Positions 45,832 to 62,374 of a DNA stretch of 64,000 nucleotides are shown here, piece after piece. The first letter of the stretch is position 1, and every line of letters begins with the position of its first letter. A program made the position numbers and the translations under genes. The DNA comes from Cypionkella aquatica (GTDB lineage: Bacteria > Pseudomonadota > Alphaproteobacteria > Rhodobacterales > Rhodobacteraceae), in NCBI RefSeq assembly GCF_030161095.1, contig NZ_BSPP01000004.1, positions 620,001-684,000 of the forward strand, in the 5' to 3' direction. The notes beneath the pieces were generated by a model, which had not been told where the DNA came from, did no database searches, and was given only the letters and a program-made list of their open reading frames with translations.

Positions 45832-47756
45832 GATTTCAACTCTGCCATATCGGCGGATTTATGGGCCAGCACGAAATGGCCATTGCCCAGATCAAGCGGT
45901 GCCATTTGGCTTGCTTCGGCGCGGAACGCCGCCGCCCAGTTCACACTTGTCAGTGCAGAGCTACCCGCGAAGGTCGCAAAATCCAAGCGGCGCTCCAGAT
46001 CGGGATAGGGCACGGCGGCCAGCAGGGCCTTGGTATAAGGATGCACGGGGGCGGTCATGATGGTTTCACGCGGTGCGATCTCAACAATCCGCCCTGCCCA
46101 CATCACGGCCACCCGATCGGCCATATAATCCACAACGGCCAAGTTGTGCGAGATGAACAGATAGGTAAGGCCGAGATCCTTTTGCAAATCTTTCAGCAGG
46201 TTAAGAATTTGCGCCTGCACCGATACATCCAGCGCCGACACAGGTTCGTCACAAACGATCAGGCCTGGCGCCAGCGCGAGGGCGCGCGCAATGCCAATGC
46301 GTTGGCGCTGGCCGCCAGAAAAGCTGTGCGGATAGCGGTGGCGGGCGGACTGACCCAAGCCAATGGCCCCTAGCAAGGCATCAACTGTGTCGCGGCGCTG
46401 GGCGGGTGTACCGCGACGGTGGATATCAAGCGGTTCCGACAAGATATTGCCGACCGTCATCCGGGGCGACAGCGACGACACTGGGTCTTGAAACACCATT
46501 TGAATCTGAGTGCGCAGGCGTTGCAGATCATCGCCCTTGGCCTCCAGCACATCGACCGGGCCAGAGCCATCATCATAGATCACCGAGCCCGCATCCGGCG
46601 TCACCGCGCGCATCAGGATCTTGCTGACGGTGGTTTTGCCGCAACCACTTTCGCCAACCAAGCCCAGACATTCGCCGCGCCTGATGTCAAAGCTGACGCC
46701 ATCCACCGCCGGAGCCGGGGCGGCGCTGGGCTTGCGAAATGCCCAAGCTTGATCGCGGGTCTGATAGGTTTTCGACAGGTTGCGCACCGACAGCAGCACT
46801 TCGGGCGCTTCGTGCTGCCTTGACGCCGTGTCCATTGGTTTTGCGTTGCCGATCGCGGTCATCAACTTGTCATGGTCAACCTTGATGTCCCGCAGTGGGC
46901 GCAACCGATCGCCTTGTGCCATGCCAAAATGAGGAATCGCGGCCATCAGGCCCTTAAGGTAGGGATGCTGCGGGCGGCGGAAAATATCCTCGACCGGGCC
47001 GGATTCCATGATGCGGCCCTGATACAGCACCACCACTTCATCGCTGACATTGGCGACGACGCCAAGATCATGGGTGATCAGCAAAATGGCCATGTTCATC
47101 CGCTGTTGCAGATCGCGCAGCAGCGTCAGGATTTGCGCTTGAATAGTCACATCCAGTGCGGTTGTCGGCTCATCTGCGATCAACAGCGATGGGCTGCAAA
47201 TCAGCGCCATCGCAATCATCGCGCGCTGGCGCATGCCGCCTGAAAGTTCAAACGGATACATATCGAACACTTTGCCGGGCTTGGTAAAGCCGACGAGCGA
47301 CAGCATATCCTCGGCGCGTTCGCGCTGTTCTTTCGCGGAAACGGGTTCGTGAATCCGCAATGCTTCGGTGATCTGATTGCCGATGGTGTGCAGTGCCGAG
47401 AATGAGGTCATCGGTTCTTGAAAGATCATGCCGATTTTGCTGCCGCGGATCGCGCGGATCTGGCGGCCATCACGCGGGAGACCCAATAGCTCAACCGTGC
47501 CACTGGGGGCCGATGGATCGGCCAGCAGCACTTTTCCACTGACACGGGCGTAATCGGGTTGCAGACCCATGATGGTCTGGCCAAGCACCGATTTGCCCGA
47601 CCCGGATTCCCCCACCAAAGCGGTGATCTTGCCAGGCAAAACCCGCAGACCGACGCCTTTCAGGGCGTCTACATGACCCGTCGCCAAAGGAAACGACACT
47701 TTAACGTCTTCGACACGCAGCAAATCCGTGCTTGTGCCAAGTAGTTGTCCTGTCAT
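45828..47756 (-). CDS. Fused dual ATPase for oligopeptide-type ABC importer (DD/F fusion)
   Basis: A protein of about 642 residues with two complete ABC ATPase domains, OppD-like then OppF-like. First: [37 protein letters not shown]. Second: [37 protein letters not shown]. Each has its H-loop. ATG at 47756 gives the family start; longer upstream frame is not supported. It is the first gene of the importer operon. The order ATPase, binding protein, OppB, OppC is unusual but coherent. Confidence 0.92.
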
Positions 47757-48018
47757 CCGAACCGACCCATTTTCTTCTGCTGTCTGGATCACTTCAGATC
47801 CCCTCGCGTGGCGAAGCCTATTGCAAGCTAGAACTTTGTGCACTTTGCAATTAAAAAGTAACAGCCGGGATTGAATTCCTGCTTGGCCACCCCGAAATGC
47901 ACTGATCGTGGCGGCTTTAGCGCTATGCAACGGTCGCACAGCGAAGTTTTGCAATCGCGCACAGAAAATGTGAACCGATGGCACCTGTATCGCGCCAAAT
48001 CCGTGTTATGTTGCCGGA
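47757..48018. other. Divergent promoter region with TTGCAA repeats
   Basis: A 262-bp gap between the importer operon (minus) and the DUF3095 gene (plus). It contains ATTGCAA (47820-47826) and TTGCAAT (47845-47851) as an inverted pair, and a further TTTTGCAATC at about 47,948. TGTGAACCGATGGCAC (about 47,970) has one good CRP half-site only. I see no gene in it. Confidence 0.4.
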
Positions 48019-49194
48019 ATGACAGAGCCAAACACCCTGAGCTTTCTTGCAGACCAGCCGATCTTCGCCGAATTTGAAGACGTGGCCAATCTGTCACGCT
48101 ATCGTTCGCTGCCAGATGGTTGGGCGTTGGCGGTGGCTGATGTGGTCTCCTCCAGTGATGCGATTGCGCGCGGCAAGTATAAATCGGTGAATATGGCCGG
48201 TGCCTCGGTGATCACGGCCGTGCTGAACGTGCTTGATGGGAGCAACTTTCCCTTCGTGTTCGGCGGCGATGGCGCGGTGATCGCGGTGCCGCCCGAAGGG
48301 ATTGAGTCGGCAGCGACGGCTTTGGCTGCAGTGGCGCGCTGGATCGAAGAAGATCTGGGTCTGAATATGCGTACCGCGATTGTGCCACTGTCAGCCATCC
48401 GTGCGGCGGGCCACGATGTGCGGGTCGCGCGGTTTCAAGCCAGCCCCGAGATGACATTCGCGATGTTTGCGGGCGGCGGCTCGGCTTGGGCCGAAGCGCA
48501 GATGAAACAGGGACAGTTTGCCGTGGCGATGGCCCCTCCCGGCAGCCGGGCCGATTTGACCGGGCTGTCGTGCCGATGGAACCCGATCCAATCGCGCAAT
48601 GGTCAGATTGTCTCGATCATTGCACTGCCCACCGCACAAGCCCGGATGGATGCTTTTCGCGCCTTGGTGTCACAGGTGGTAACTTTGGCCAATATGGCGG
48701 GTGGGTCGGGCAACCCGTTGCCGCCCGAGGGACCTAATCCGCAGTTGACGCTGGCCGGCGTTGCGACTGAGGCTAGCGCGCTGGCGCCGCCGGGCAAACG
48801 CTTTGCCGCCAAGCTGAAGGTGGTCGTCGCAATCGTGATGACCGTGGTTCTGCACCGCACTGGCTGGACCTTGGGCAGTTTCAACGCGCGCGAATATGCG
48901 CGGCAACTGACCCGCAATACCGATTTCCGCAAGTTTGATGATGGTTTGAAAATGACGATTGATGTCAACGCCGATGGCCTTATGGCGATAGAATCCCTGC
49001 TTGAAACTGCTGCCGCTGCAGGGGTTTGCCAGTTTGGCCTGCACAAACAGGATTCTGCACTGGTCACTTGCATTGTGCCATCGCTGCGGGCGCATGATCA
49101 CATGCATTTCATCGACGGCGCGTCAGGCGGCTACGCACAAGCGGCCACCGCGATGAAAGCCAAAGCCGCCGCGATGACGCCCGCGCTTTCATGA
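48019..49194 (+). CDS. DUF3095 protein, possible class III cyclase relative
   Basis: A 391-aa protein of the DUF3095 family: LALAVADVVSSSDAIA, the invariant RGKYKSVNMAGASVITAVLN, and PFVFGGDGAVIAVP. Asp41 (VADV) and Asp84 (GGDG) are 43 residues apart, close to the 44-residue spacing of the two metal-binding Asp in the cyclases encoded downstream. The Lys that selects adenine (KFMGDG in the cyclases) is Val here. A cyclase-like fold is thus possible, with altered or no activity. It leads a run of plus-strand genes containing two cyclases, a cNMP-binding protein and an ABC-like protein. Start ATG at 48019. Confidence 0.85.
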   Translation: MTEPNTLSFLADQPIFAEFEDVANLSRYRSLPDGWALAVADVVSSSDAIARGKYKSVNMAGASVITAVLNVLDGSNFPFVFGGDGAVIAVPPEGIESAATALAAVARWIEEDLGLNMRTAIVPLSAIRAAGHDVRVARFQASPEMTFAMFAGGGSAWAEAQMKQGQFAVAMAPPGSRADLTGLSCRWNPIQSRNGQIVSIIALPTAQARMDAFRALVSQVVTLANMAGGSGNPLPPEGPNPQLTLAGVATEASALAPPGKRFAAKLKVVVAIVMTVVLHRTGWTLGSFNAREYARQLTRNTDFRKFDDGLKMTIDVNADGLMAIESLLETAAAAGVCQFGLHKQDSALVTCIVPSLRAHDHMHFIDGASGGYAQAATAMKAKAAAMTPALS

Positions 49195-49344
49195 CAAACG
49201 CCTTGCTTGGATAGGGCGCTTGCGATTGAGTGCAGTGAGCGATGGTTTTAAAGCAAAATTTGGTTCATTGCAGGCTTAGCAGTCGCCACTGCGCCCTGCG
49301 TTTCTATTTTCTCGCCGACCGATCTTGTGGAGGGCTTTAAGGCC

Positions 49345-52065
49345 ATGCTGGACCCCAACATCTCACGCTACATCTGGACCCACACAAAGCGGCAGCAGCT
49401 TTGGGTTCTGGCGGTGGTCGCGGCGTCGATGATTCCGTATTTTCTGTCGCTGAACCTGCCCAAGCAGATTGTGAACGGACCTATTCAAGGTGATGGCTTT
49501 GCCGATCCTGCTGCCATGCAAACCTTTATGCAAATCTCATTTGATGTGCCGTGGTTTGGCACAGTGTCCCTGTTTGACGGCGTGCAGCTGGATCGATTGA
49601 ACACGCTTTTCGCGCTTAGCGGTGTGTTCTTGCTGTTGGTGATCGTCAACGGGCTCTTCAAATATTACATCAATACCTACAAAGGCCGATTGGGCGAGCG
49701 GCTGCTGCGGCGGATTCGCTTTACGCTGGTGGATCACATTCTGCGCTTTCCCCCCTCTACCTTCAAACGGCTGAAGGGGGCCGAAATCTCAAGCATGGTC
49801 AAGGACGAGGTCGAGCCCTTGGGCGGCTTTACCGGAGATGCTTTTGTGGCTCCCGCGCTGTTGGGCGGGCAGGCGATCATGGCGCTGGCCTTCATCTTTG
49901 TGCAAAGCGTGCCGCTTGGGTTGATCACCACCGCCCTGGTCGCGGTGCAGGCACTGATCATCCCCCGAATGCGGCGGCGTTTGCTGGTGTTGGGTCGAGA
50001 GCGGCAGCTGACCGCCCGCGAATTGGCGGGCCGCGTCAGCGAGATCGTGGACGGCATCAATACGATCCACTCTTACGACACCTCGAATTTCGAGCGGGCG
50101 GACATCGCGTCGCGGCTCGGGCGGATCTATAAAATTCGCTTTGATATTTATCAGTGGAAGTTCATGGTGAAGTTCATCAACAACTTCCTCGCTTCGGTGA
50201 CGCCATTCCTGTTTTACAGCATCGGCGGCTATCTGGCCTTGCAAGGTCAGCTGGATATTGGCCAGTTGGTCGCGGTGATCGGGGCTTACAAAGATTTGCC
50301 CGGCCCGCTGAAAGAATTGATCGACTGGGATCAGAACCGTCAGGATGTGCAGATCAAGTACAATCAGGTCATCGGGCAGTTTGCCGTGGATGGTTTGATT
50401 GACCCTGAGATACAGGCAGTTTCGACCGAGCGCGCTGATGGCAAGCTGACCGGGCCGCTGGCCGCTGTAAATTTGGGGGTGACCGATGACACTGGCGCTG
50501 TGGGGCTGGACCGCGTCAACTTCTCGCTGATGCCCGGAGAGTCGGTGGCGATCATCGGCAATGCAGGTTCGGGTGCCGATGTAATGGCCGAAGTGATGGC
50601 GCGCATCGTTTGGCCGACCCACGGCCAAATCAGCATCGGCGCGGCGGATTTGCACGCTTTGCCCGAATCGCTTTCAGGCCGTTCCATCACCTATGCGGGG
50701 ACCGATGCCTATTTTTTCTTCGGAACAGTGCGAGACAACTTGCTTTACGGGTTGAAGCACGCGCCGATCACCGATCTGGTATTTGAAGGTGCTGCGCTGA
50801 CGCAGCGTCAGTGGGAGAAGCGCGAGGCGCTGTGGGCGGGCAATCCAGAATTCGACATTCACTCGGATTGGATCGACTTTGAGTATCAGGGTGCCGCCGA
50901 TATGACCGCCTTGATGCCGTCGGTTTATGCGGCGTTGGATGCAGTGGCGCTGACGCGCGACATGTTCGATCTGGCACTAAGGTCGCACGTCAATTTGGCA
51001 GAGCATGGCGATCTAAAGGCCAAAACCGTCGAGATGCGCCGCATCCTGCGTGACGCGCTCACCCAGCAGGATCTGAACGGTTTGATCGAACCGTTCGAGC
51101 CGGGCACTTACAACACTGAAGCCACGGTGATCGAGAATTTGCTGTTTGGCAACGCACGCACGCCGGAACTGATGGCCGGGGCGATCATCAACAATCCATA
51201 TTTCCTGAGTCTCTTGAAGCAGCGCGGTCTGGCAGATGCTCTGTTTGCCGTCGGCACCGAGATTGCACGCAACGCGATCGAACTGTTCAGCGATCTGCCA
51301 CCCGACCATCCGTTCTTTCAGCAACTGACCTTTATGCGGGCCGATGATATCCCCGTTTACAGTATCGTTTTGAAAAAGCTGGATAAAAGCGCCACCAGCG
51401 TGACCGAATCCGACCGTGCCATGATGATCCGGCTTAGCTTTGACTATATCGAACCCCGGCACCGTTTTGGTCTGCTGACACCCGAGCTGATGACCCGCAT
51501 CGTCGATTTCCGCACGGATTTCCACGGCGGGCTGCCAGCCAACCTGAAAGACGCAATCGAGCTTTACGACCCCGAGCAATACATGGTTTCCGGCACATTG
51601 CTGGACAACATGCTGTTCGGACGCATCAGCCAGAAATACCGTGATGGGGTGGAGCGGATTTATGCGGTTGCAGGTGGCGTGCTGCGTGATCTGGGCATCT
51701 ATGAAACCTTGCTCTCCATTGGGCTGGATTTCCACATCGGGGCGGGTGGCAAGCGGCTGACCTCGGTGCAGCGCCAGAAACTGGCGCTGGCGCGGGCGTT
51801 GATCCGGCGCTCGGATTTCTACTTGTTTAACCGCCCGCTGTCGGCTTTGGACACCCGCACGCAAGAACAGGTCCTGATTTCGGCGTTGAAATATTTGCGC
51901 AGGGACGGTCGCGCGCCAGCGGTTGCTTGGGTGATTTCACATGCGAAATTTGCGCGATTGTTCGACCGGGTCGCGGTTTTCGAGCGTGGCCGATTGGTTG
52001 AAGAAGGCCCTCATGCAGAACTTTTACAAAAGAATGGTATCTTCAAGGATCTGATATCTGCATAG
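49345..52065 (+). CDS. ABC-exporter-like protein with degenerate, expanded ATPase domain
   Basis: A 906-aa protein. Residues 1-340 form an exporter-type membrane domain (helices near 20-38, 88-108, 172-206, 280-312). The ATPase region begins about residue 375 but has lost key residues: the P-loop is GNAGSGAD (405-412, Lys replaced by Ala), the signature is LTSVQ (805-809), and Walker B reads YLFNRPLSALD (Asp and Glu replaced by Asn and Arg). The H-loop His866 remains. Between P-loop and signature are about 390 residues instead of about 110. Three copies of a T-x2-[DE]-N-[LM]-L-[YF]-G motif (461, 594, 751) lie in this stretch. ATP hydrolysis is unlikely. Confidence 0.85.
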   Translation: MLDPNISRYIWTHTKRQQLWVLAVVAASMIPYFLSLNLPKQIVNGPIQGDGFADPAAMQTFMQISFDVPWFGTVSLFDGVQLDRLNTLFALSGVFLLLVIVNGLFKYYINTYKGRLGERLLRRIRFTLVDHILRFPPSTFKRLKGAEISSMVKDEVEPLGGFTGDAFVAPALLGGQAIMALAFIFVQSVPLGLITTALVAVQALIIPRMRRRLLVLGRERQLTARELAGRVSEIVDGINTIHSYDTSNFERADIASRLGRIYKIRFDIYQWKFMVKFINNFLASVTPFLFYSIGGYLALQGQLDIGQLVAVIGAYKDLPGPLKELIDWDQNRQDVQIKYNQVIGQFAVDGLIDPEIQAVSTERADGKLTGPLAAVNLGVTDDTGAVGLDRVNFSLMPGESVAIIGNAGSGADVMAEVMARIVWPTHGQISIGAADLHALPESLSGRSITYAGTDAYFFFGTVRDNLLYGLKHAPITDLVFEGAALTQRQWEKREALWAGNPEFDIHSDWIDFEYQGAADMTALMPSVYAALDAVALTRDMFDLALRSHVNLAEHGDLKAKTVEMRRILRDALTQQDLNGLIEPFEPGTYNTEATVIENLLFGNARTPELMAGAIINNPYFLSLLKQRGLADALFAVGTEIARNAIELFSDLPPDHPFFQQLTFMRADDIPVYSIVLKKLDKSATSVTESDRAMMIRLSFDYIEPRHRFGLLTPELMTRIVDFRTDFHGGLPANLKDAIELYDPEQYMVSGTLLDNMLFGRISQKYRDGVERIYAVAGGVLRDLGIYETLLSIGLDFHIGAGGKRLTSVQRQKLALARALIRRSDFYLFNRPLSALDTRTQEQVLISALKYLRRDGRAPAVAWVISHAKFARLFDRVAVFERGRLVEEGPHAELLQKNGIFKDLISA

Positions 52066-52079
52066 TCAGGTTGCAAGTG

Positions 52080-52095
52080 GTCACAAAACTGTGAC
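52080..52095. repeat. GTCACA-AAAC-TGTGAC inverted repeat
   Basis: A perfect 6-bp inverted repeat with a 4-base centre, 15 bp after the ABC-like gene and 49 bp before the cNMP-binding gene. The arms are in the opposite order to a CRP site (TGTGA first), so it is not a normal CRP site. It could be a hairpin or an operator. Confidence 0.4.
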
Positions 52096-52143
52096 GTGGC
52101 AGCTTGGCCTATCCAGCAGGTGCAGCAATGGGAAGGTCGCGAC

Positions 52144-52611
52144 GTGTTACTGAATGACGAAGTCAAAATGCTGAAACAAGTGCCATTGTTTGCGGGAGTT
52201 TCGCCTGCAAAGCTAAAGCTTTTGGCCTTCACATCTGAACGGGTTTCTTACCGTTCGGGCGATGTGCTGTGTCGTCAGGGTGATGCGGGTGACGCTGCCT
52301 TTGTGTTGCTGTCGGGGCACGCAGATGTAATCGTTGATGGCCCCACCGGGCAGATCAAGGTCGCTGATCTTGAAGAAAACGCCATCGTCGGTGAAATCGC
52401 TATCCTGTGCGATGTGGCCCGGACCGCCACCGTCAAGGCAGCCACGGCAGTTGAGGCTTTGCGGATCAGCAAGGAAAACTTCTTCAAACTGATGTCGGAT
52501 TTCCCGGAAATGACCATTGAGGTTGTGCGGGTTCTGGCCGACCGTCTTAGCCAGACCACGGTGGAACTGTCAGAGGCGCGCAGCCGGGTTGCCGAACTGT
52601 CCAAGCGTTGA
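52144..52611 (+). CDS. Stand-alone cyclic-nucleotide-binding protein
   Basis: A 155-aa single-domain CNB protein. The phosphate-binding cassette is GEIAILCDVARTATV, with Glu84 and Arg93 in place to hold the ribose and cyclic phosphate. There is no helix-turn-helix or effector domain, so it must act by binding a partner. GTG start at 52144 has AAGG eight bases before. Thr after the Arg (RTA) recalls cGMP-type cassettes in eukaryotic kinases, a weak hint only. It lies between the degenerate ABC protein and the hydrolase. Confidence 0.9.
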   Translation: MLLNDEVKMLKQVPLFAGVSPAKLKLLAFTSERVSYRSGDVLCRQGDAGDAAFVLLSGHADVIVDGPTGQIKVADLEENAIVGEIAILCDVARTATVKAATAVEALRISKENFFKLMSDFPEMTIEVVRVLADRLSQTTVELSEARSRVAELSKR

Positions 52612-52838
52612 GACAGCCCAGCCTGCCATGATTTGGACAAGAGCTGCCGGTAATGCGGACAAGCATGGCTTTTCTTTTGTTCAGTTGTGCAATCGGGACT
52701 CGCATCTGGCCAAGATGCTTCCTATCCTAAAAGTATCAGCGATCTGGGGACTCTGATCTTGACGACGTGCGGTGATGAAAAAGCTTCTGGCTTGTGCGTA
52801 AGGCATGGCGGAGGGCAGCTTTTGGGCTTGCCTTTCGT

Positions 52839-53672
52839 ATGACTGAACGTGCCAAGTTCCAGCTGAAGCTATGGGGCACACGTGGCGGCCTTTCGGTTAG
52901 CGGGCCGCAATTTGTGGAATTTGGCGGCAACACCACCTGTATCGAAATGCGCTGCGGCGATGATGTGATGATGTTCGATGCGGGCAGCGGAGCGCTTTCG
53001 GCGGGGGCGGCTATGGCGGCCGAGGGTTGCAGGGATGTGACGCTGTTTTTCACTCATACCCATTACGACCATATCTGCGGTCTGCCGTTCTTCAAACCGC
53101 TGTATTGCAAGCAGTCGCAGCTGCGGCTGTGGTCGGGCCACATGGGCGCTGCGATGACGACGCGGCAAATGTTGAAAGAATTCATGCGTGATCCGTTTTT
53201 CCCGATTGGGCCGGATTACTGCAGCGCGGGCATTGATGCGCGCGATTTCAAGGTTGGTGACGTGCTGACGCCGCATCCCGGTGTGCATATCCAGACCGGC
53301 TTGCTGAACCATCCCGGCAATGCGGTGGGCTACCGGGTTGAATTTGGTGGCCGCTCGATTGCGATTATTACCGATACCGAACATGAGCCGGGTGTGCTCG
53401 ATCCTGCCGTGTTGCGGTTGATCGACAAGGTGGATTTGTTTCTGTATGACGCGACCTTTACCGATGCCGAGATGGCGACCTACAAGGGGTTCGGCCATTC
53501 TAGCTGGCAGCAAGCCGTACGGTTGGCGCAAGCGGCGGGTGCAAAACAGGTCGGCTTTATCCACCACAGTTTTCACCGCAGCGACGCAGATCTCTTGCAG
53601 ATCGAGCAGGACGCCAAGGCGCAATTCGCCGGTGCCTTCTGCGGTCGAGAGCTTCAGGTGATTGACCTTTAG
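52839..53672 (+). CDS. Metallo-beta-lactamase-fold hydrolase
   Basis: A 277-aa MBL-fold enzyme with KLWGTRGGLSVSG at the start and the metal motif THTHYDH (72-78); further ligands are His in LNHPG and Asp in ITDTEH and a final HHSFH. It belongs to the group with WGTRGS starts that includes phosphodiesterases acting on RNA or small nucleotides. Neighbouring cyclases make cyclic-nucleotide phosphodiesterase a reasonable idea. ATG at 52839 preferred; the ribosome site is weak. Confidence 0.88.
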   Translation: MTERAKFQLKLWGTRGGLSVSGPQFVEFGGNTTCIEMRCGDDVMMFDAGSGALSAGAAMAAEGCRDVTLFFTHTHYDHICGLPFFKPLYCKQSQLRLWSGHMGAAMTTRQMLKEFMRDPFFPIGPDYCSAGIDARDFKVGDVLTPHPGVHIQTGLLNHPGNAVGYRVEFGGRSIAIITDTEHEPGVLDPAVLRLIDKVDLFLYDATFTDAEMATYKGFGHSSWQQAVRLAQAAGAKQVGFIHHSFHRSDADLLQIEQDAKAQFAGAFCGRELQVIDL

Positions 53673-53802
53673 TCTACCGCTGTTCACGGTTTCGCCAGCT
53701 TGGACAGCGTTGTGGAAATGCTTCTTTTTTGTGACAGTGAAACCCGCTAAGAGCAGCATCTTTCCCATATTCGCGTTCGCATGGGGGAATAAGGACAGTT
53801 GC

Positions 53803-55167
53803 GTGCAATCTAATTTCTCCTCCATCCGGGATTTTCTGGTTTATCTATGGACGGGCGGGCCGTATGGCGAATCCGTGCCGGCCCGGGTGATGGCCGAGAT
53901 TGATCGGCGTGAAACCGCAGCCGAGCAAACCATAAGTTGGGCGCAGCTTGGCATCGTGGGCTTTTTTACCGCGCTCTATTGGATCGCCCCGCGCGCCGAG
54001 GGCGGTTTTGGCGAAAACTTTGTGCCGATGACGCTGGCAGCCTATCTGGTCTTCACGGTTTTCAGGGTGTTCCTGTCGTATCGCATGGTGCTGCCCGGTT
54101 GGTATCTGCTGCTGTCGATGGTGGTCGACGTGGGCTTGCTGTGCGGCATGATCTTTTCGTTTCACATCCAGTATAATCAGCCGCCTGCGTTTTATCTGAA
54201 ATCTCCAACGATGATTTATCTGTTCTTTTTCATTGCCTTGCGGGCTTTGCGATTTGATCCGCGCTATGTCTTGATGTCTGGGCTGATTGCAGCTTCAGGC
54301 TGGGTGTTGATGGTGCTTTATGCGCTGACTTATGACATGGGCGACATGCACATCACCCGCAATTATGTTGAATACCTGACCTCGAACACCATCCTGATCG
54401 GGGCGGAGATTGATAAGGTTATGACGCTGCTGGGTGTCACGTTGATTTTGACCTTTGCGCTGTTTCAGGCGCGATCTGTGCTGATTGACGCCATTCAAAG
54501 CCATGCCGCTGCCGATGATCTCAGCCAATTTTTCGCACCCGAAGTGGCCGATCTGATCACACAATCGGCGCAGATGCCCGCCAGTGGCCAAAGCGAAGTG
54601 CGTTCGGCGGCAATCATGTTTGTCGATGTGCGCCGCTTTACCACCACGGCGCTTAGCCTGCCGCCGGCGACGGTGATGCGGGTGTTGGAGCACTATCAGC
54701 AGATCGTTTTGACGGTGATCGAGCAGCAACACGGCCAGATCGACAAATTCATGGGCGATGGAATTCTGGTGACTTTCGGGGCGCTTCAGCATGGCGAGAC
54801 ATATGCGGCAGATGCATTGCAGGCGGCATCATCCTTGATCGCTGCGTTGGACGAGCGGCAAGATGAATTCGCCGCGCTGGGCTGGCCCGGCCGTTTTGTG
54901 GTTGGCGTCGCCGTCGCGTCGGGGGATGTAACGGTGGGGATCGTAGGCTCGCAGGGGCGCTACGAATTTACCGTGATTGGCCATGCGGTCAATCTCGCCT
55001 CAAAGCTGGAAAGCGCCAACAAGGCACAACATACCCGCGCTTTGACCGATGCCATCACCCATGCCCGCGCTGAAGCGCAGGGCTATGCCAATCCGGCGGT
55101 GCTGCGGCGGGACGGCGTGGTCGTGAAGGGCTTGAGCGCACCCGTCGACCTTGTGGTTTTGGCATGA
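53803..55167 (+). CDS. Membrane-anchored class III adenylate cyclase
   Basis: A 454-aa protein. Five or six membrane helices span about residues 45-225, followed by a class III cyclase domain: Asp275 (MFVDVRRF) and Asp319 (KFMGDG) for metals, Lys315 and Thr390 for adenine, Asn397. The transition-state Arg expected at 401 is Lys (NLASKLE). Lys/Thr selectors fit class IIIb adenylate cyclases. GTG start at 53803, AAGGA before it. It overlaps the next cyclase by 4 bp. The Arg-to-Lys change may slow it. Confidence 0.92.
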   Translation: MQSNFSSIRDFLVYLWTGGPYGESVPARVMAEIDRRETAAEQTISWAQLGIVGFFTALYWIAPRAEGGFGENFVPMTLAAYLVFTVFRVFLSYRMVLPGWYLLLSMVVDVGLLCGMIFSFHIQYNQPPAFYLKSPTMIYLFFFIALRALRFDPRYVLMSGLIAASGWVLMVLYALTYDMGDMHITRNYVEYLTSNTILIGAEIDKVMTLLGVTLILTFALFQARSVLIDAIQSHAAADDLSQFFAPEVADLITQSAQMPASGQSEVRSAAIMFVDVRRFTTTALSLPPATVMRVLEHYQQIVLTVIEQQHGQIDKFMGDGILVTFGALQHGETYAADALQAASSLIAALDERQDEFAALGWPGRFVVGVAVASGDVTVGIVGSQGRYEFTVIGHAVNLASKLESANKAQHTRALTDAITHARAEAQGYANPAVLRRDGVVVKGLSAPVDLVVLA

Positions 55168-56879
55168 GCGATCTGAGCCGAGTTGGCGACATGCACGCCC
55201 GGCCAGACGGCTGGCGCAGGCTCGCCCAGCGACTGCGCTCAAGTGCCAGCGTGCTGCGGTTGTGGTCGGGACTGATCCTGTTCGGTTTTGCTGCGCTGCA
55301 TTTGCTGAATCACGCGCTGGGGTTGGTATCGCTTGAGGCGATGCAGGCGGGGCAGGATCTTCGACTTGCCGTCACCCGCAGCACACTTGGCACGCTGATC
55401 TTGTGCGCCGCGGCTTTGGTGCATTTCTGTCTTGGCATGTGGCGGTTTATCTATCTGCGCACGTGGCGGATTGGCTTGCGGGGTGTTGTGCAATTGCTGT
55501 TCGGCTTGCTCATTCCGATTCTGCTGATCCGGCATGTGTTGGGCACACGCGGCGTGCATGAGTTTTTTGGCATCGCTGACAGATATGCCTATGCGTTGCG
55601 AGCGATGTGGCCCGGCGAGGCGGTGCGGCTGGCCCTGCTGGTCACCCTTGTCTGGGTGCATGGCTGTATCGGCCTGCATATGTGGCTGTCGCCGAGGCCG
55701 TGGTATCGTCGCAACCTTTGGGCGGTCTACGGGCTGGCGGTGTTGATCCCAACGCTGGGCTACGCGGGCTATGTCTCTGCCGGGCGGTTGGAACGGCTGC
55801 GCGGTGGCGGGTCCAACCCATTCACACCCGAACAATACGCCTTGATCCAAAGCAGGTTGGTCGAATGGCCCTACGCCTACTTCTTCATCCTGATGACAGG
55901 CATGGCGATCTGGTTTCTGCTATTGGTGGCCAACCAGATGGGCGCGCGGGTGACGGTGCGCTATGCCTACGGCCCGACCATCACGGCATCGCGTGGCATG
56001 TCGGTGCTAGAGATCAGTCAGGCCAACCGCATCCCGCATGCGTCGGTTTGCGGCGGTCGGGCGCGGTGTTCAACCTGTCGGGTGCGGGTGCTAGAGGGGT
56101 TCGACCAACTGCCGGCGCCCTCGGCAACCGAACAGCAGGTGTTGCGGCGGGTGGGTGCGCCCGCGAATGTGCGCTTGGGCTGTCAGCTGCGGCCCACGGC
56201 GGATGTGATGATCTCAACCCTGCTGCCCGCCAATCTGGAGCAAGGCCGGACCGGCGATTTCGACAAATACCATTGGGGGGTCGAGCGCGAGGTGACGCTG
56301 TTGTTCTGCGATTTGCGCGGCTTTACCAAAATGTCGGAAGGCCGTCTGTCGTTCGATGTCGTGTTCGTGCTGAACCAGTTTCTGGGCCGCATGGCCGAAG
56401 CGATCGAAGACAGCGGCGGCTTTGTCGATAAATTCATGGGCGATGGCATCATGGCGATATTTGGCATGGATGCAGCCCCAAGTGATGGCGCGCGCCAAGC
56501 CATCGCAGCTGCCCGCGCGATGAGTGGGGTGCTGGACAGTTTGAATCAAAGCCTGCACGAGGAGTTGCGTATTCCTTTGGCCATGGGGATCGGTATTCAC
56601 TCTGGCCCGGCGATTCTGGGTCGGATCGGCTCGGTGCAGCGCACGGAATCGGTGGCGCGGCTGACCGCCTTGGGCGAGACTGTAAACATCGCCAGCCGTC
56701 TGGAAAGCGCCACCAAGGAACTGGGCGTTCAGGCTGCGGTTTCTGCCTATGCGCTAAAGCTCTCCGGCCTACAGCCGAATGAAACCACGATTCCCCGCAC
56801 AGTTGAAATCAGGGGCCTTAGTCAGCCGTTGGATATCGTGGTGGCGCGGCGGGCGACGGGTCTGCCGCAGCCGGGATGA
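55164..56879 (+). CDS. Membrane adenylate cyclase with His-rich anchor and [2Fe-2S] domain
   Basis: A 571-aa protein with three parts. (1) Six membrane helices (about 34-257), with His46/50, His87, His124 and His166/172 inside or at the ends of helices, as in cytochrome b and SdhC-like anchors. (2) A ferredoxin-like domain with Cys296-x5-Cys302-x2-Cys305 and Cys340, the adrenodoxin-type [2Fe-2S] set. (3) A class III cyclase domain: Asp383, Lys423, Asp427, Thr501, Asn508, Arg512, all active-site residues present. A related layout is known in CyaC of Sinorhizobium meliloti, described as quinone/redox responsive. The 3' end overlaps the convergent phosphoesterase gene by 62 bp. Confidence 0.92.
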   Translation: MSDLSRVGDMHARPDGWRRLAQRLRSSASVLRLWSGLILFGFAALHLLNHALGLVSLEAMQAGQDLRLAVTRSTLGTLILCAAALVHFCLGMWRFIYLRTWRIGLRGVVQLLFGLLIPILLIRHVLGTRGVHEFFGIADRYAYALRAMWPGEAVRLALLVTLVWVHGCIGLHMWLSPRPWYRRNLWAVYGLAVLIPTLGYAGYVSAGRLERLRGGGSNPFTPEQYALIQSRLVEWPYAYFFILMTGMAIWFLLLVANQMGARVTVRYAYGPTITASRGMSVLEISQANRIPHASVCGGRARCSTCRVRVLEGFDQLPAPSATEQQVLRRVGAPANVRLGCQLRPTADVMISTLLPANLEQGRTGDFDKYHWGVEREVTLLFCDLRGFTKMSEGRLSFDVVFVLNQFLGRMAEAIEDSGGFVDKFMGDGIMAIFGMDAAPSDGARQAIAAARAMSGVLDSLNQSLHEELRIPLAMGIGIHSGPAILGRIGSVQRTESVARLTALGETVNIASRLESATKELGVQAAVSAYALKLSGLQPNETTIPRTVEIRGLSQPLDIVVARRATGLPQPG

Positions 56880-58491
56880 TCGCGGTGTCATCGGCCTGCA
56901 TCCGATCAAGCGAGGTTTGCAGCACCGATAGAAACCGCCACAGGAAAGCAGCTGCACCTTGGCGCGGATCGGCTGCGGGGTCGCCAAAAGCAGCGGCAAT
57001 GGCGCGGTAACCTGCAAGTCGCTCCGCCGTAATCCAGTTTTTTGCCAAAGGCCCAGCGACTTTGATCAGGTAGGCATCGATGATCAGCTCCGACAGCGGG
57101 TAATCAACAAGGCTTTGCGCGGCAAGCCCATGCCGCAGCGCAAAATCTTCGGCACTGATACCCGCCAGTTCAAGCAAAAATCGCGCGTCTTTTCCGGTCA
57201 GCAAGCCCGCAATCTCGGCAGGCCAGTCATACTGCAACCGTCGCTCTGTTACATTCGCCCGCCTCTGCGCGGCAAGAAAGGTCCCGAATGGCAACGGCGG
57301 TCCTTGCCGCCCCTCGGCCTGATACAGGGCCGAAATCTTGGGGTCTGGCGGCAGCTCATTCAGGGTGATGGTCTGCGCGGTGGCTGTTTTTGCATCGGCT
57401 TGGATGATCTTGAACGCAGGCGGAAACGCCACAAGCGAGGGCATCGAAATATCTGTCAGCGCACCCGCTTCTGTCACCAGATGGTTGGTCGCGTTGACAT
57501 GCATGTGCCCCCCGATATGCCAGCGCAATCCGGCCGCGATCAGGGCCTGTGCCACCTCTGGCCCCGGCGTGCGCCGGGTGTTGCTTGTTGGGCCGAACAG
57601 CGCATGCTCAGACTGCGCCGCATCTTGAAACGGGTCCAACACTGGATAATGCGACACCGTCAGCAAGGTTTTCCCAAGCGCCCGCGCCCGCGACGTGACA
57701 TCGGTGATCCACGCCAGCAGAAACGGCTTTACCCGCAGCAACGCATTCCAGCCCGCATCTGATGGGCCGAGAAACGCCTTTTTGCGTGTGGCATCATGCC
57801 GACCACCGCACGGCTCGAACACATTGGCATCCAGCATCAACAGCCAAAGGCCGGGCTCTGGCTCCACCAGATAGGATGCATCCATCAGGGTCTGCGTAAC
57901 ACTGCCGTCGGCAGACTGGGCGCGATACATCCGGCTTTCGATCTGGTCGCTGGCCGAGAATGGGGTTTCCCAATGCAGATAATCTGGCTGTCGAAACAAC
58001 CCAAACCGCGCAATCGGCAACAGCGCCTCTGGTTGCCCGGCACAGCGCATCGCGGGTGACAGAATGGCCGGATGGTCGCTGACATAGATCGGGTCGCTGG
58101 ACACAGTGACGGTTTCACCCGGCGCGCTGACATAGGGGCTGGTGACGTGTTTGCCATGCGGGCCGTAAAGGTCGTGATTGCCGGGTATCGCGTAAAAGCG
58201 CAGCCCGTGCCGAGCCTCGAACCGGTCCAGCACAGCGACCAGCCGCCGAACATTTTCGACCTGCCCGTCATCGCTGTAATCGCCCGCCAAGACGACATGG
58301 CGCACCCCTGCCGCTGCGATCTTTTCAAGCGCCGCAGTCAGGGCACCCGCGCTTTCATTAAACGCCCGCGCTGCCGTCCTCGTATCGGCCCAGCTGCGCA
58401 TCGCGCGGTTTGCGCCCTCGATCACTAGGCCAAAATCGCCCGTCGTGTCGTGAAAATGTGCATCAGCCAGCACTGCCACCCTGTGCAACAT
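56818..58491 (-). CDS. Calcineurin-like metallophosphoesterase
   Basis: A 557-aa metallophosphoesterase with the full motif set: D-x-H (Asp10/His12), GDYSDDG (Asp71), GNHD (105-107), SHYP and GGHMH. It is much longer than CpdA cAMP phosphodiesterase (about 275 aa); the C-terminal 200 residues have no match I know. It faces the redox-type cyclase with a 62-bp overlap of coding 3' ends. A cyclic-nucleotide phosphodiesterase role fits the context but is inference; lipid or nucleotide phosphatase is possible. No signal peptide is obvious. Confidence 0.88.
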   Translation of the reverse strand: MLHRVAVLADAHFHDTTGDFGLVIEGANRAMRSWADTRTAARAFNESAGALTAALEKIAAAGVRHVVLAGDYSDDGQVENVRRLVAVLDRFEARHGLRFYAIPGNHDLYGPHGKHVTSPYVSAPGETVTVSSDPIYVSDHPAILSPAMRCAGQPEALLPIARFGLFRQPDYLHWETPFSASDQIESRMYRAQSADGSVTQTLMDASYLVEPEPGLWLLMLDANVFEPCGGRHDATRKKAFLGPSDAGWNALLRVKPFLLAWITDVTSRARALGKTLLTVSHYPVLDPFQDAAQSEHALFGPTSNTRRTPGPEVAQALIAAGLRWHIGGHMHVNATNHLVTEAGALTDISMPSLVAFPPAFKIIQADAKTATAQTITLNELPPDPKISALYQAEGRQGPPLPFGTFLAAQRRANVTERRLQYDWPAEIAGLLTGKDARFLLELAGISAEDFALRHGLAAQSLVDYPLSELIIDAYLIKVAGPLAKNWITAERLAGYRAIAAAFGDPAADPRQGAAAFLWRFLSVLQTSLDRMQADDTAIIPAAADPSPAAPPRYPTAD

Positions 58492-59044: not shown

Positions 59045-60388
59045 TTACGCTTTGACGATGTGATTGCCCGCGATGTTATGGCGGGCAAAGACGTTGCGGG
59101 TGTCGATGATCAGCGGCGCATGTGCTGCCAGCAAGGCATAATCCAGCCCGTCATGGTCGGTGGCTATCAGCACTGCATCAAACGACTGGATCGTGCACGA
59201 ATCAAGCGGCACCGAACGGCGCCCCATCAACGCGCCATAAGCCCGCGTTTTCGGAATTTCGGACACGAAAGGATCGTGATAGCTGGCCTGCCCGCCACGT
59301 TCTTCAATCAGCTCGATCAGTTTCAGCGATGGGCTTTCGCGAATGTCCGGCACGTTTTTCTTATAGGCCAGACCGATCACCAGCACGTTGGATCGGCTCA
59401 GCGCTTTGCCAGAGTGAAGATCCAACGCCTCGGCCAGACGGCTGGCAACATGGCGTGGCATCGCCGCGTTGATCTCACCCGCAAGTTCGATGAAGCGGGT
59501 GGGAATGTCATATTCCCGGGCTTTCCACGTAAGATAAAACGGGTCAATCGGGATGCAATGTCCGCCCAAACCCGGGCCGGGGTAGAACGGCATATAGCCG
59601 AAAGGCTTTGTCTTGGCGGCCTCTATGACTTCCCAGATATCGACGCCCATCGCTTCGTAAATCACCTTCAACTCGTTGACCAAAGCGATATTGACGGCGC
59701 GAAACACGTTTTCCGTCAGCTTGACGGCCTCGGCGGTGGCGGTTGAAGATACCGGCACCACAGTTTTTACCACGGCGGCATAAAAAGCTGCAACCAACAC
59801 ACCCGCAGCCGCACCATCGCCCGCAACAATCTTGGGAATGGTTGAGGTGTCATAGGCCCGGTTGCCGGGATCTTCACGTTCAGGCGAAAACCCAAGGTAG
59901 AAATCTTGGCCCGAAACCAAACCGCCAGCCTCTAGGATTCGCTTCACCGGGCCGTCGGTGGTGCCGGGATAAGTCGTCGATTCCAGCACGATCACCTGAC
60001 CCGGGCGCAAGGTTTTGGCGATGTCGTCGCAGGTGCGGGTGATGAAAGACAGATCAGGCTCGCGGTGGCGGGTCAGCGGGGTTGGCACGCAGATCACAAT
60101 GACATCGCAGAACCCAAGTCCCGCGAAATCAGCGGTGGCGGTGAAACGCCCGGCTGCAACCTGCTCGGCCAGCACTGCATCTGGCACCGCCTCGATATAG
60201 CTTTTGCGCGCATCGACGGCGGTAATCTTGCCGGGATCGGTGTCAAATCCCGTGACATGGAAGCCCGCCCGCGCTGCGGTGATTGCCAATGGCAAGCCGA
60301 CATAGCCCAGACCAATCACCCCGACACGGGCCTTGCGACTGGTGATGTTTTGCAAAAGCATCGAATGGGGCAAGGGGCGATCCGCCAT
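59045..60388 (-). CDS. UDP-N-acetylhexosamine-type 6-dehydrogenase
   Basis: A nucleotide-sugar dehydrogenase (447 aa): IGLGYVGLPLA NAD-binding fold, ESTTYPGTTD, the catalytic Cys in GPGLGGHCIPIDPFYL, and LAYKKNVPDIRESPS. It performs the two-step oxidation of C6, making a uronic acid. WbpA/WecC-like patterns suggest UDP-GlcNAc or UDP-ManNAc as substrate. In-frame ATG codons at 60388 and 60361 both fit. The product would feed a surface polysaccharide. Confidence 0.9.
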   Translation of the reverse strand: MADRPLPHSMLLQNITSRKARVGVIGLGYVGLPLAITAARAGFHVTGFDTDPGKITAVDARKSYIEAVPDAVLAEQVAAGRFTATADFAGLGFCDVIVICVPTPLTRHREPDLSFITRTCDDIAKTLRPGQVIVLESTTYPGTTDGPVKRILEAGGLVSGQDFYLGFSPEREDPGNRAYDTSTIPKIVAGDGAAAGVLVAAFYAAVVKTVVPVSSTATAEAVKLTENVFRAVNIALVNELKVIYEAMGVDIWEVIEAAKTKPFGYMPFYPGPGLGGHCIPIDPFYLTWKAREYDIPTRFIELAGEINAAMPRHVASRLAEALDLHSGKALSRSNVLVIGLAYKKNVPDIRESPSLKLIELIEERGGQASYHDPFVSEIPKTRAYGALMGRRSVPLDSCTIQSFDAVLIATDHDGLDYALLAAHAPLIIDTRNVFARHNIAGNHIVKA

Positions 60389-60533
60389 GGCTGAGGGTGG
60401 TTCCGAGATGGGGCAGTTTGGCAGGCCTGTCAAGGATGCGGCAACCTGCCGGATCACTACGATTCCGGTCGCCCTGCGCCGGCTTTGCGCTTAACCTGTG
60501 GGTGTTGCTTGCAAACCAGCCGGATCATTGCCC

Positions 60534-61652
60534 ATGACGCGCCCTGAACGCCGCCTGCGGATCGCCTTCTACGCGCCTTTGAAGGCCCCGACGCATCCGG
60601 TGCCTTCGGGGGATCGTTTGATGGCACAACTGCTGACGCAATGCTTGAATATTGCGGGTCATCATGTCGATCTGGTGTCTGATTTACGCGCCTATCTGGG
60701 CGACGCGCAGGATGTGACCGGTTGGGCAGCTTTGCAGGCAGCGGCCAAACTGGAGCAAGACCGGATCTGTGCGGATTGGGCCAAGAGCGGCCCGCCCGAT
60801 CTGTGGCTGTGCTATCATCCCTATTACAAGGCGCCCGATCTGCTGGGACCAACCCTCGCGCAACAATTTGGCCTGCCCTATGTCACGATTGAAACTTCGA
60901 TCTCTGCGCGGCGCAATCTGGGGATCTGGAGCGAGATGCAGGCCCAGGTTGAAAAAGGTGTGCAGCAGGCCAGCCTGAATTTGTGCTTGACCGCGCGCGA
61001 TGCGGCGGGTTTGCAACTGGCCACCCCAAGCGCACGATTTGCTAGGTTTGCGCCGTTCATCCAGACCGATGCTTTCGCAGCCCCGCCAAATCCGCAACCT
61101 GGCCATCTGGTCACGGTGGCGATGATGCGCCAAGGCGATAAGGCTGACAGTTATCGCAGGCTTGCGGCAACTTTGGCCTTGCTGCCGAGTGATCTGGAAT
61201 GGCGGCTTGCTGTGGTCGGCGGGGGACCCCTTTGCGACGAAGTACGCGCGATGTTCAGGGGTCTGCCTGCGGATCGAGTAAATTGGCTGGGCGAGCAACC
61301 TCCGCAGCAGATCGCGACACTTCTTTCGCAGGCTTGGGCCTATGTCTGGCCGGGCTGCGGAGAGGCTTACGGCCTTGCGTATCTAGAGGCTCAGGCGGCT
61401 GGCGTTCCAGTGGTGGCGCAACGCGTGGCGGGGGTGCCAGAGGTGGTTGCAGATGGCGAAACCGGATTTCTGACAGCAGAAGGCGATGATGCGGCGGCGG
61501 CGGCGGCCATTGCCCGGCTGTTGCGTGATCCTGACTTGCAGCGCCGCATGGGTCAGGCCGCACGCGTTCGGGTTCTGCGCGATCATGCGCTGGCGGGGGC
61601 CGCGCACCGCCTTAGCACCGTTTTGCAAACATTGGTAAAGGTTGCCGTATGA
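60534..61652 (+). CDS. GT4-like glycosyltransferase
   Basis: A 372-aa GT-B transferase. Donor-site region PGCGEAYGLAYLEAQAAGVPVVAQRVAGVPEVV, and VTVAMMRQGDKADSYRRLAATLALLP near residue 205. It diverges from the dehydrogenase gene and overlaps the deacetylase gene by 4 bp. The N-terminal half is diverged and the acceptor is unknown. Start is ATG at 60534. Confidence 0.88.
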   Translation: MTRPERRLRIAFYAPLKAPTHPVPSGDRLMAQLLTQCLNIAGHHVDLVSDLRAYLGDAQDVTGWAALQAAAKLEQDRICADWAKSGPPDLWLCYHPYYKAPDLLGPTLAQQFGLPYVTIETSISARRNLGIWSEMQAQVEKGVQQASLNLCLTARDAAGLQLATPSARFARFAPFIQTDAFAAPPNPQPGHLVTVAMMRQGDKADSYRRLAATLALLPSDLEWRLAVVGGGPLCDEVRAMFRGLPADRVNWLGEQPPQQIATLLSQAWAYVWPGCGEAYGLAYLEAQAAGVPVVAQRVAGVPEVVADGETGFLTAEGDDAAAAAAIARLLRDPDLQRRMGQAARVRVLRDHALAGAAHRLSTVLQTLVKVAV

Positions 61653-62374
61653 CGCAGGCATTGCAAAACGCATTGGATCAAAGGGCAGCTGCTGGAAACC
61701 CGGCGCGGCTGTGGTTGCGCGATGACGATGCGAGAGCGCCCAGTGTGGCACTGGATCAATTGTTGGGCGTTACCGAAGCCTCCAGCGTCCCTGTCACACT
61801 GGCGGTTATTCCTGCCGATGCGGGTGCCGCGTTGGCCGCGCGGCTGCAAAAAGCCGCAGGCGTGTCGGTTGCCGTGCATGGCTGGTCGCATCGCAACTAT
61901 GCCCCAGAGTTTGAGAAAAAGCAGGAACTGGGCGCGTACCGGCCGATACCGCAAGTCTTGGCCGAGCTTGAGCGTGGATTTGTGCGACTGTCGCAGCAAT
62001 ACCAGCAACATTTCACCCCGGTGCTGGTGCCGCCGTGGAACCGCATCAGCCCCGATGTGGTGGCAGGCTTGCCCGGTATCGGCTTTCAGGCGCTTTCAGT
62101 ATTTGGCCCCGAACGGCAAGCCGCGCTGCCGTTGATCAACACCCATGTTGATGTGATCGACTGGCGCGGCGGGCGCATGGGGCGGCCAGATGCGGTGCTG
62201 ATGGACGAGATTGCAGCCGCCATCACCCGAGGCGACCAGCCGATCGGCGTGCTGACGCATCACCTTGTGCACGATGCGCAGGTCTGGGGCTTTCTGGCGC
62301 GCTTGTTCGCCTTGACGGTTGGTCATCCCGGCTGCCGTTGGGTCGGTCTGCCAGAGCTTATCCGCTTACCATGA
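61649..62374 (+). CDS. NodB-like polysaccharide deacetylase
   Basis: A 241-aa protein with the NodB carbohydrate-deacetylase outline: LWLRDDDARAPS (metal Asp pair), SVAVHGWSHRNY (HGxxH-type His pair), PPWNRIS and GVLTHHLVHDAQ. Metal ligands look complete. It probably removes acetyl groups from a polysaccharide or sugar-lipid. It overlaps the upstream glycosyltransferase by 4 bp and converges on the next one with a 9-bp overlap. No signal peptide seen. Confidence 0.85.
   Translation: MTQALQNALDQRAAAGNPARLWLRDDDARAPSVALDQLLGVTEASSVPVTLAVIPADAGAALAARLQKAAGVSVAVHGWSHRNYAPEFEKKQELGAYRPIPQVLAELERGFVRLSQQYQQHFTPVLVPPWNRISPDVVAGLPGIGFQALSVFGPERQAALPLINTHVDVIDWRGGRMGRPDAVLMDEIAAAITRGDQPIGVLTHHLVHDAQVWGFLARLFALTVGHPGCRWVGLPELIRLP

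Follow-up and report, generated by a model that had tools for sequence, protein, structure and literature searches.

Cyclic AMP (cAMP) and cyclic GMP (cGMP) are known in bacteria chiefly for their action through transcription factors. In Sinorhizobium meliloti, nine genes in smb21252–smb21271 were reported to be required for PPP, a surface polysaccharide that protects against phazolicin (Travin et al. 2023, PMC10128002; here and below, statements on cited work refer to the parts of each paper that were consulted). Mutants of smb21252 and smb21265 were hypersensitive to phazolicin, insertions in cyaA were depleted in the same transposon sequencing experiment, and PPP was possibly linked to symbiosis (PMC10128002). 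Seven of the nine PPP genes are upregulated during Myxococcus attack (PMC10315480). In this study, we analyzed a 64-kb stretch of the genome of Cypionkella aquatica (contig NZ_BSPP01000004.1, positions 620,001 to 684,000; hereafter the window), in which an ABC protein that resembles a type I exporter and has a degenerate nucleotide-binding domain (NBD), designated as ABCx, is encoded next to a single-domain cyclic mononucleotide (cNMP)-binding protein, designated as CNB. We propose, as a reading that we hold to be evenly poised between right and wrong, that the locus makes a surface glycan and that ABCx–CNB is its cyclic-nucleotide-controlled membrane component, in which CNB would bind cNMP and change the state of ABCx.

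An earlier note on this DNA had described a compact module of about 10.5 kb, composed of a DUF3095 protein, the ABC-exporter-like protein, CNB, an MBL-fold hydrolase (MBL), two class III cyclases (AC1 and AC2) and a metallophosphoesterase (MPE). Pfam and other profile matches on the open reading frames of the window found all of these parts at 48019–58491: the first six genes are codirectional, and MPE lies on the opposite strand, convergent with them. The order DUF3095–ABCx–CNB–MBL–AC1–AC2–MPE is retained in four genomes of the same genus and both class III cyclases found in the genome are located here, so that the clustering exceeds chance. The gene cluster is thus real, but its borders had been drawn too narrowly. 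Judged by gene content, the cNMP unit sits in a surface-glycan locus with glycosyltransferases, a deacetylase and an Opp-type importer, which spans approximately 38–62 kb of the window (Table 1).

By the same measure, the window locus corresponds to the S. meliloti PPP gene set smb21252–smb21271, with the gene numbers inferred. On pSymB of strain 1021 (NC_003078.1, L116; L and G numbers are our handles for loci and genomes), the row reads GT_A, deacetylase, MBL, DUF3095, UGD, cyclase, Opp importer, GT28c, GT4b, GT28a, ABCx and CNB, with the cyclase and ABCx each in two overlapping frames. In strain R14, the second gene past CNB encodes a LacI regulator. The numbering was anchored on SM_b21272, described as a LacI regulator (PMC11387232), and on SMb21257, described as a truncated adenylate cyclase (PMC12542648), and counting between them places ABCx and CNB inside smb21252–smb21271. 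The earlier note knew of no described system with this make-up. A counterpart locus is in fact in print (PMC10128002), whereas a cNMP-linked ABC pseudo-ATPase was not found in the literature searched. Searches on DUF3095, on the pairing of CNB with ABC exporters and on inactive or pseudo ABC proteins likewise found nothing on the ABCx family (judged by title for the inactive or pseudo ABC proteins), in a literature that mostly excluded subscription papers.

Three samples of ABCx loci were compared. The close sample consisted of the best 80 of at least 495 ABCx relatives, mostly from Rhizobiales, with flanks of up to 10 kb on either side, some of them cut short by contig ends. The diverse sample held 68 loci, namely 60 places (mostly one per family code, including some paralogues) and eight further loci (L025–L032), and the plasmid sample held 13 loci chosen from the listed matches, with 20-kb flanks. 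The close and diverse samples together gave 148 loci and 147 ABCx proteins (80 and 67, respectively); because the two genome sets may share species, neither figure is a count of independent events.

ABCx matched ABC_membrane (PF00664, E = 1.3e-23) and, in part, ABC_tran, and its fold is MsbA-like by profile match. The window protein retains the H-loop His (residue 872) and lacks the Walker A Lys, the Walker B Asp, the catalytic Glu and the LSGGQ signature. In an alignment of the 80 close proteins, the Walker A Lys was present in none (0/80), the Walker B Asp was replaced by Asn in all (80/80), and the catalytic Glu and the H-loop His were each found in two, the window protein being one of the pair with the His. 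The decay of the ATPase site is uneven, since among the 67 diverse proteins the Walker A Lys persists in 32 and the catalytic position is occupied by Glu also in 32. Even so, Lys, Asp and Glu are jointly kept in only 2/147 proteins, both of which lack the H-loop His, and the four residues occur together in none (0/147). The suspicion in the earlier note that this ABC protein is unable to hydrolyze ATP therefore extends to the family as a whole: judged by these motifs, ABCx cannot hydrolyze ATP in the usual way. Conservation was also distributed unusually along the protein. Among nine diverse members, identity was 0.495 in the transmembrane domain (TMD) and 0.31 and 0.28 in the NBD halves, whereas canonical exporters of related genomes (n = 7, selected for intact ATPase motifs) gave 0.56 for the TMD and 0.70 for the NBD. 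Three units, all containing an NLLFG-type motif, are arrayed in tandem between Walker A and the signature of ABCx. The units aligned with one another by hhalign (units 2 and 3, E = 3e-15; 1 and 2, 6e-8; 1 and 3, 1e-7), whereas seven control pairs gave values of at least 0.12. The Asn of the motif was present in 147/147 proteins at positions 604 and 761 and in 144/147 at position 471.

It is unlikely, in our assessment, that ABCx is still an ATP-using exporter of a glycan or lipid-linked precursor, or forms a heterodimer with a canonical partner encoded elsewhere, with CNB merely tuning it. The MsbA-like fold and the Lys and Glu residues retained in the diverse members speak for such a function, and MsbA2 of S. 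meliloti, a different protein, has been described as a polysaccharide ABC exporter (PMC12239276). The absence of a full ATPase site from all 147 proteins argues against it. In addition, the group to which the window protein belongs has lost the Walker A Lys, the Walker B Asp, the catalytic Glu and the H-loop His together, so that no consensus site would be expected in a heterodimer either, and a second exporter TMD was not found in the window from 38 to 62 kb. MsbA2 (SMb21191) was also considered as the ABCx orthologue and was rejected, given the position of ABCx inside smb21252–21271 deduced above.

The partnership of ABCx with CNB is the most constant feature of these loci. CNB adjoins ABCx in 127 of the 148 loci, and in a further 14 the two form one protein. 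In the close loci, it is adjacent and on the same strand in 77/80; in the diverse loci, it is adjacent in 50/68, on the same strand in 50/50 of these, and fused at the C-terminus of ABCx in 14/68. All 13 plasmid loci contain CNB, two of them in the fused form. Two loci without CNB are on short contigs (L094, in which ABCx extends to the contig end, and L183, on a 5-kb contig). The 14 fused proteins group in a single clade of the tree (FastTree support 0.956), so that the data show one fusion or fission only, and not the independent fusions that would have been stronger evidence. Residues that contact cNMP are conserved in CNB: Gly99 in 43/43, Glu100 in 42/43 and Arg109 in 43/43 aligned proteins, which came from 38 of the 80 close loci, the window and four others. 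When a permissive pattern was applied to the fused proteins, Gly-Glu was found in eight and Gly-Asp in six, with the Arg present. The best matches of CNB to solved structures were mostly kinase CNB domains, and the CNB domains of SthK and mll3241 were matched as well; the solved CNB-like chain 5d1i was discarded as an orthologue owing to the distance of the match. An alternative GTG start of CNB at 52144 agrees with the relatives. The idea of the earlier note that CNB works with the ABC-like protein was to be judged by co-occurrence in relatives, and 141 of the 148 loci have the two genes on the same strand or fused, with the contact residues conserved. We regard the CNB–ABCx link as well supported by these genomic comparisons.

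The family was searched for with a profile (A2) of the ABCx-specific region. It was detected in 131 of 385 genomes sampled evenly from the class, corresponding to 87 of 277 genera, and in 31 of 398 genomes sampled from the phylum, all 31 of which belong to the same class (same class, family or own). Granulosicoccus/Granulosicoccaceae metagenome-assembled genomes (MAGs; L108 and L109) were the sole non-Alphaproteobacteria by title noticed among the ABCx relatives listed for the close sample. The closest named relative of the window protein among these relatives (89%) is in a Cypionkella MAG (L034). The ABCx match was in two pieces in 8/40 among the matches listed. Two genomes of the same family, G190 (L186, L187 and L188) and G367 (L189 and L190), carry two or three fused ABCx–CNB paralogues each.

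Table 1. Genes and regions of the glycan locus in the window, with positions counted from its first nucleotide
Feature	Position	Strand	Remarks
Glycosyltransferase with GT28 C-terminal domain, GT28a	38071..39228	-	
Glycosyltransferase group 1, GT4b	39225..40475	-	
Glycosyltransferase with GT28 C-terminal domain, GT28c	40472..41683	-	
Opp-type permease, OppC-like	41747..42943	-	
Opp-type permease, OppB-like	42940..43938	-	
SBP_bac_5 solute-binding protein (SBP)	43942..45831	-	
Opp-type ABC importer ATPase	45828..47984	-	Two ABC_tran stretches
DUF3095 protein, PF11294	48019..49194	+	Pfam E 7e-125; two conserved Asp motifs
ABCx, type-I-exporter-like TMD and degenerate NBD with three tandem Q-loop/helical units	49327..52065	+	
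ABCx family-specific region (repeated unit), first Q-loop to degenerate signature	50713..51711	+	Without Pfam match
CNB, single cNMP-binding domain PF00027, 171-aa frame	52096..52611	+	No helix-turn-helix match
MBL-fold hydrolase, MBL	52794..53672	+	Lactamase_B_2; weak NF041851 and RNase Z matches
AC1, membrane class III cyclase, Lys at transition-state Arg position	53662..55167	+	Guanylate_cyc; start uncertain, 53803 possible
AC2, SdhC-like membrane part, 2Fe-2S ferredoxin domain and class III cyclase (CyaC-like)	55164..56879	+	
MPE, metallophosphoesterase (Metallophos)	56818..58491	-	Convergent, overlaps AC2 end
SAM methyltransferase PF12692	58501..59088	-	
Nucleotide-sugar (UDP-glucose/GDP-mannose) dehydrogenase, UGD	59045..60457	-	
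Group 1 glycosyltransferase, GT_A	60498..61652	+	
Polysaccharide-deacetylase-like protein	61649..62374	+	PF01522 slightly below cutoff, 21.2 of 23.1 bits

The glycan genes were recovered around ABCx in many relatives. Neighbors in the close loci were counted by profile; BLAST best hits mix in paralogues of the importer ATPase and the glycosyltransferases. GT4b was found in 60 of the 80 loci, GT28a and GT28c in 59 each, strong matches to the importer ATPase and to SBP in 59 and 50, respectively, GT_A and the deacetylase in 39 each, UGD in 25 and the methyltransferase in 13. At least two of the four glycosyltransferases of the locus were present within approximately 10 kb in 60/80 close loci and in 41/50 diverse loci with separate CNB and ABCx genes (split type), and in 0/14 of the fused type. 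In the window, a sugar-transferase-like gene (Gly_transf_sug, 62366–63343) adjoins the locus and is followed by a gene at 63344–63967 without a Pfam match.

This constancy bears on a second explanation, which we consider improbable to much the same degree as ATP-driven export, namely that ABCx–CNB, being neither transporter nor channel, serves in the membrane as a scaffold or sensor through which the glycosyltransferases are assembled or regulated. A dead NBD with repeated helical units would offer an enlarged cytosolic surface, and the glycosyltransferases are, after CNB, the most constant neighbors of the split type. However, the TMD is the most conserved part of ABCx, which would be needless for a mere anchor, and some of the fused types are found without those glycosyltransferases nearby.

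The genes for the synthesis and presumed removal of the nucleotide were less constant at first count. In the close loci, MBL was found in 37, a cyclase in 36 and DUF3095 in 21. Among the diverse loci, a cyclase was found in 12/68 (10 split and two fused) and MBL in 7/50 of the split and 0/14 of the fused type; these counts are lower bounds because the flanks were short. In the plasmid loci with their 20-kb flanks, a cyclase and DUF3095 were each found in 10 of 13, the importer ATPase in 12, GT4b in 11, UGD in eight, MBL in six and MPE in one. The plasmid loci without a cyclase or DUF3095 were those of Rhizobium rhizoryzae (L237), Azospirillum (L240, fused) and Ruegeria (L241, fused). On pRLN2 of Rhizobium leguminosarum, no cyclase, MBL or DUF3095 appeared at 10 kb (L085), and a cyclase and DUF3095 lay at 11–14 kb when the 20-kb flanks were examined (L229). 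As far as the sequences tell, the cyclase and DUF3095 are thus regular members of the locus in rhizobia, located farther from ABCx than in the window. The idea that cyclases and DUF3095 are mere accessories rested on the 10-kb flanks and is weakened by the plasmid counts. The expectation that the families of the module would co-occur in relatives therefore held for CNB and ABCx (141/148) and for the cyclase and DUF3095 in the plasmid loci, with the qualification that the cyclase is less constant than CNB (36/80 and 12/68). It failed for MPE, which was found in 11/80 close loci and 1/13 plasmid loci and is not a steady member. In two Rhizobium plasmids (L229 and L230), cyoABCD ubiquinol oxidase genes are located a few kb behind CNB, at 25.9–30.1 kb in both, a possible redox link.

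AC2 combines a Guanylate_cyc domain (E = 3e-16) and a Fer2 domain (E = 7e-7) with five hydrophobic segments, the match of which to sdhC was weak (E = 0.008). Its class III active-site set is complete (DKDTNR: two metal-binding Asp, Lys and Thr for base binding, and Asn and Arg for the transition state), and the Arg is kept in the four counterparts from the same genus. In AC1, the transition-state Arg is replaced by Lys, a replacement shared by the four counterparts from the same genus and by five others of the 64 cyclase domains aligned. Cyclases of this Lys type comprise that at 53662–55167 of the window and AC1-type sequences in L021–L024, L034, L112, L182, L192 and L193. In the window genome (99.9% complete), a search with a threshold of E = 0.001 gave two class III cyclase domains, which both lie in the locus, and a search for class I cyclases found none. 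The genome gave two CNB-domain matches, namely CNB and one protein that reads as FNR-like (its Cys cluster is of the FNR type and its end resembles an HTH, HTH denoting helix-turn-helix); besides the latter, no CRP-like regulator was found. These genome-wide searches were blind to divergent families. Among 15 genomes of the same genus, all five with the ABCx locus carry two to five class III cyclases, whereas none of the ten without it carries any (0/10), five of these ten being less than 90% complete. Two of the cyclases come with the locus, so the weight of this comparison lies in the zeros and in the lack of other cyclases in the window genome. In the same-genus genome G005, a cyclase lies approximately 2 kb from a CNB-domain protein elsewhere (C24, 581.5–587.5 kb, L228), possibly representing a further cNMP system.

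The cyclase-like Asp spacing that the earlier note had pointed out in the DUF3095 protein was confirmed: the conserved motifs contain D41 and D84, which are 43 residues apart, compared with 44 in AC2. When aligned by hhalign with class III cyclases, DUF3095 gave E = 0.0016 with 22 sequences and E = 2.5e-4 (probability 43%) with 52 sequences, whereas eight control families gave E values of at least 0.1 in both runs, and the DUF3095–cyclase similarity lay around the two Asp motifs. A sequence search of the PDB gave no match at E = 1. It is possible that DUF3095 is a divergent relative of the class III cyclase/GGDEF fold, the similarity being suggestive, not proof. DUF3095 was detected in 48 of the 349 genomes examined from the phylum; eight of those listed, large genomes with the family code f171 (L197–L204), are absent from the ABCx matches. 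MBL scored 42.9 bits against NF041851, a family of cyclic nucleotide-degrading phosphodiesterases, which is below the cutoff of 400, and resembles RNase Z.

We propose that a redox or quinone signal would act on AC2 to yield cNMP, which would be bound by CNB; CNB would dock at the cytosolic NBD end of ABCx, the site of fusion in some members, and alter the state of ABCx, which would switch glycan export, flipping or assembly on or off post-translationally. The signal would come mainly from AC2, and MBL, perhaps together with MPE, would remove cNMP. The binding, docking and gating steps, the cargo, and the roles assigned to AC1, MBL, MPE and DUF3095 are predictions of this proposal.

Several observations weigh against it. 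A cyclase is absent within 10 kb in 44/80 close and 56/68 diverse loci, and 34/80 close loci have none of cyclase, MBL and DUF3095 at this distance, a count that is due in large part to the 10-kb flank, as on pRLN2, where the cyclase and DUF3095 lie farther out. AC1 may be a weak or inactive cyclase because Lys replaces its transition-state Arg. CNB was not found near ABCx in L108 (15 kb examined), L159, L164 and L179, and is 4.4 kb from ABCx in L110. In the fused proteins, the Arg is followed by the canonical R-[TS]-A residues in 3/14 and by others in 11/14. None of the four glycosyltransferases was present in the stretch in 14/14 fused diverse loci or within 20 kb in the fused Ruegeria locus (L241); the importer and glycosyltransferases adjoin ABCx in the fused Azospirillum locus (L240), which is outside the diverse set. 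In S. meliloti 1021, ABCx (approximately 841.7–844.4 kb) has an apparent frameshift; the frame is open in strains 2011 (L114) and R14 (L115). ABCx or CNB may be outside the nine PPP genes. The change in sensitivity of the cyaA mutant was small, and the authors consider gene regulation (PMC10128002).

The absent cyclases and the variable residues after the Arg are also what would be expected if the CNB–ABCx unit were real but the cyclases, MBL, DUF3095 and MPE were functionally unlinked to it, with CNB sensing another ligand or the general cNMP pool. We find this somewhat harder to accept than either the exporter or the scaffold. The cyclase and DUF3095 each accompany ABCx in 10/13 plasmid loci, the window genome has neither another class III cyclase nor another non-FNR CNB protein that we could find, and class III cyclases in the genus go with the locus (5/5 against 0/10), even when it is considered that the locus supplies two of them. 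Action by transcription, as with Clr in S. meliloti, where cAMP-Clr regulates polysaccharide genes (PMC5498481), would make CNB a degraded CRP-type regulator and would agree with its annotation in the R14 record as a Crp/Fnr-family regulator, but it is highly improbable and CNB was rejected as a transcription factor, given that no HTH family was matched in its 171 residues (Pfam), its best structural matches are mostly kinase domains, fusion to a membrane protein argues against DNA binding in the fused group, and the only CRP-type regulator found in the window genome is FNR-like.

If cyclic-nucleotide control of ABCx through CNB is correct, a widespread pseudo-ATPase ABC family coupled to a cNMP sensor would give cNMP signaling a direct output at the post-translational level, would show a route by which an ABC exporter is diverted from ATP, and would provide the little-understood rhizobial PPP polysaccharide with a testable control switch. 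The PPP cluster of S. meliloti, with the same gene set as the window locus, is treated as encoding a putative surface polysaccharide, and the parts of that account consulted contain nothing on CNB or the dead ABC protein (PMC10128002); its cyclase is called truncated, whereas the window has two open cyclase frames. CyaC of S. meliloti shares the order of parts with AC2, i.e., an SdhC-like part, a 2Fe-2S domain and a cyclase with K, T, N and R, and its activity is said to rise after quinone oxidation (PMC10463352). By analogy, AC2 may read the quinone or redox state. CyaC is, however, reported to act with the transcription factors Clr and CycR (PMC10463352), and no such gene is present in the window stretch. 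MsbA and other type I ABC exporters have the TMD fold and the overall layout in common with ABCx, which differs from them in the loss of the ATPase motifs, the three tandem Q-loop/helical units in the NBD and the steady CNB partner. SthK and mll3241 (MloK1) are likewise membrane proteins controlled by a CNB domain, to which the window CNB shows similarity; they are potassium channels, whereas the membrane part here is of the ABC type and CNB is usually a separate protein. The cyc_nuc_ocin family (TIGR03896) consists of CNB proteins named for an association with bacteriocin-type transport, and the window CNB scored 44.8 of the 161 bits required, far below the cutoff. CFTR and SUR are ABC-exporter bodies turned into a channel and a channel regulator, respectively; they are eukaryotic, have at least one working ATP site and are not known to be linked to a CNB protein. 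Compared with all of these, and with less assurance than we give to the control of the glycan locus itself, ABCx–CNB might represent a new class of cyclic-nucleotide-gated membrane protein, found in approximately one-third of the sampled alphaproteobacterial genomes, that has given up ATP, uses a cNMP-binding partner or domain as its switch and controls glycan export or assembly directly, without transcription.

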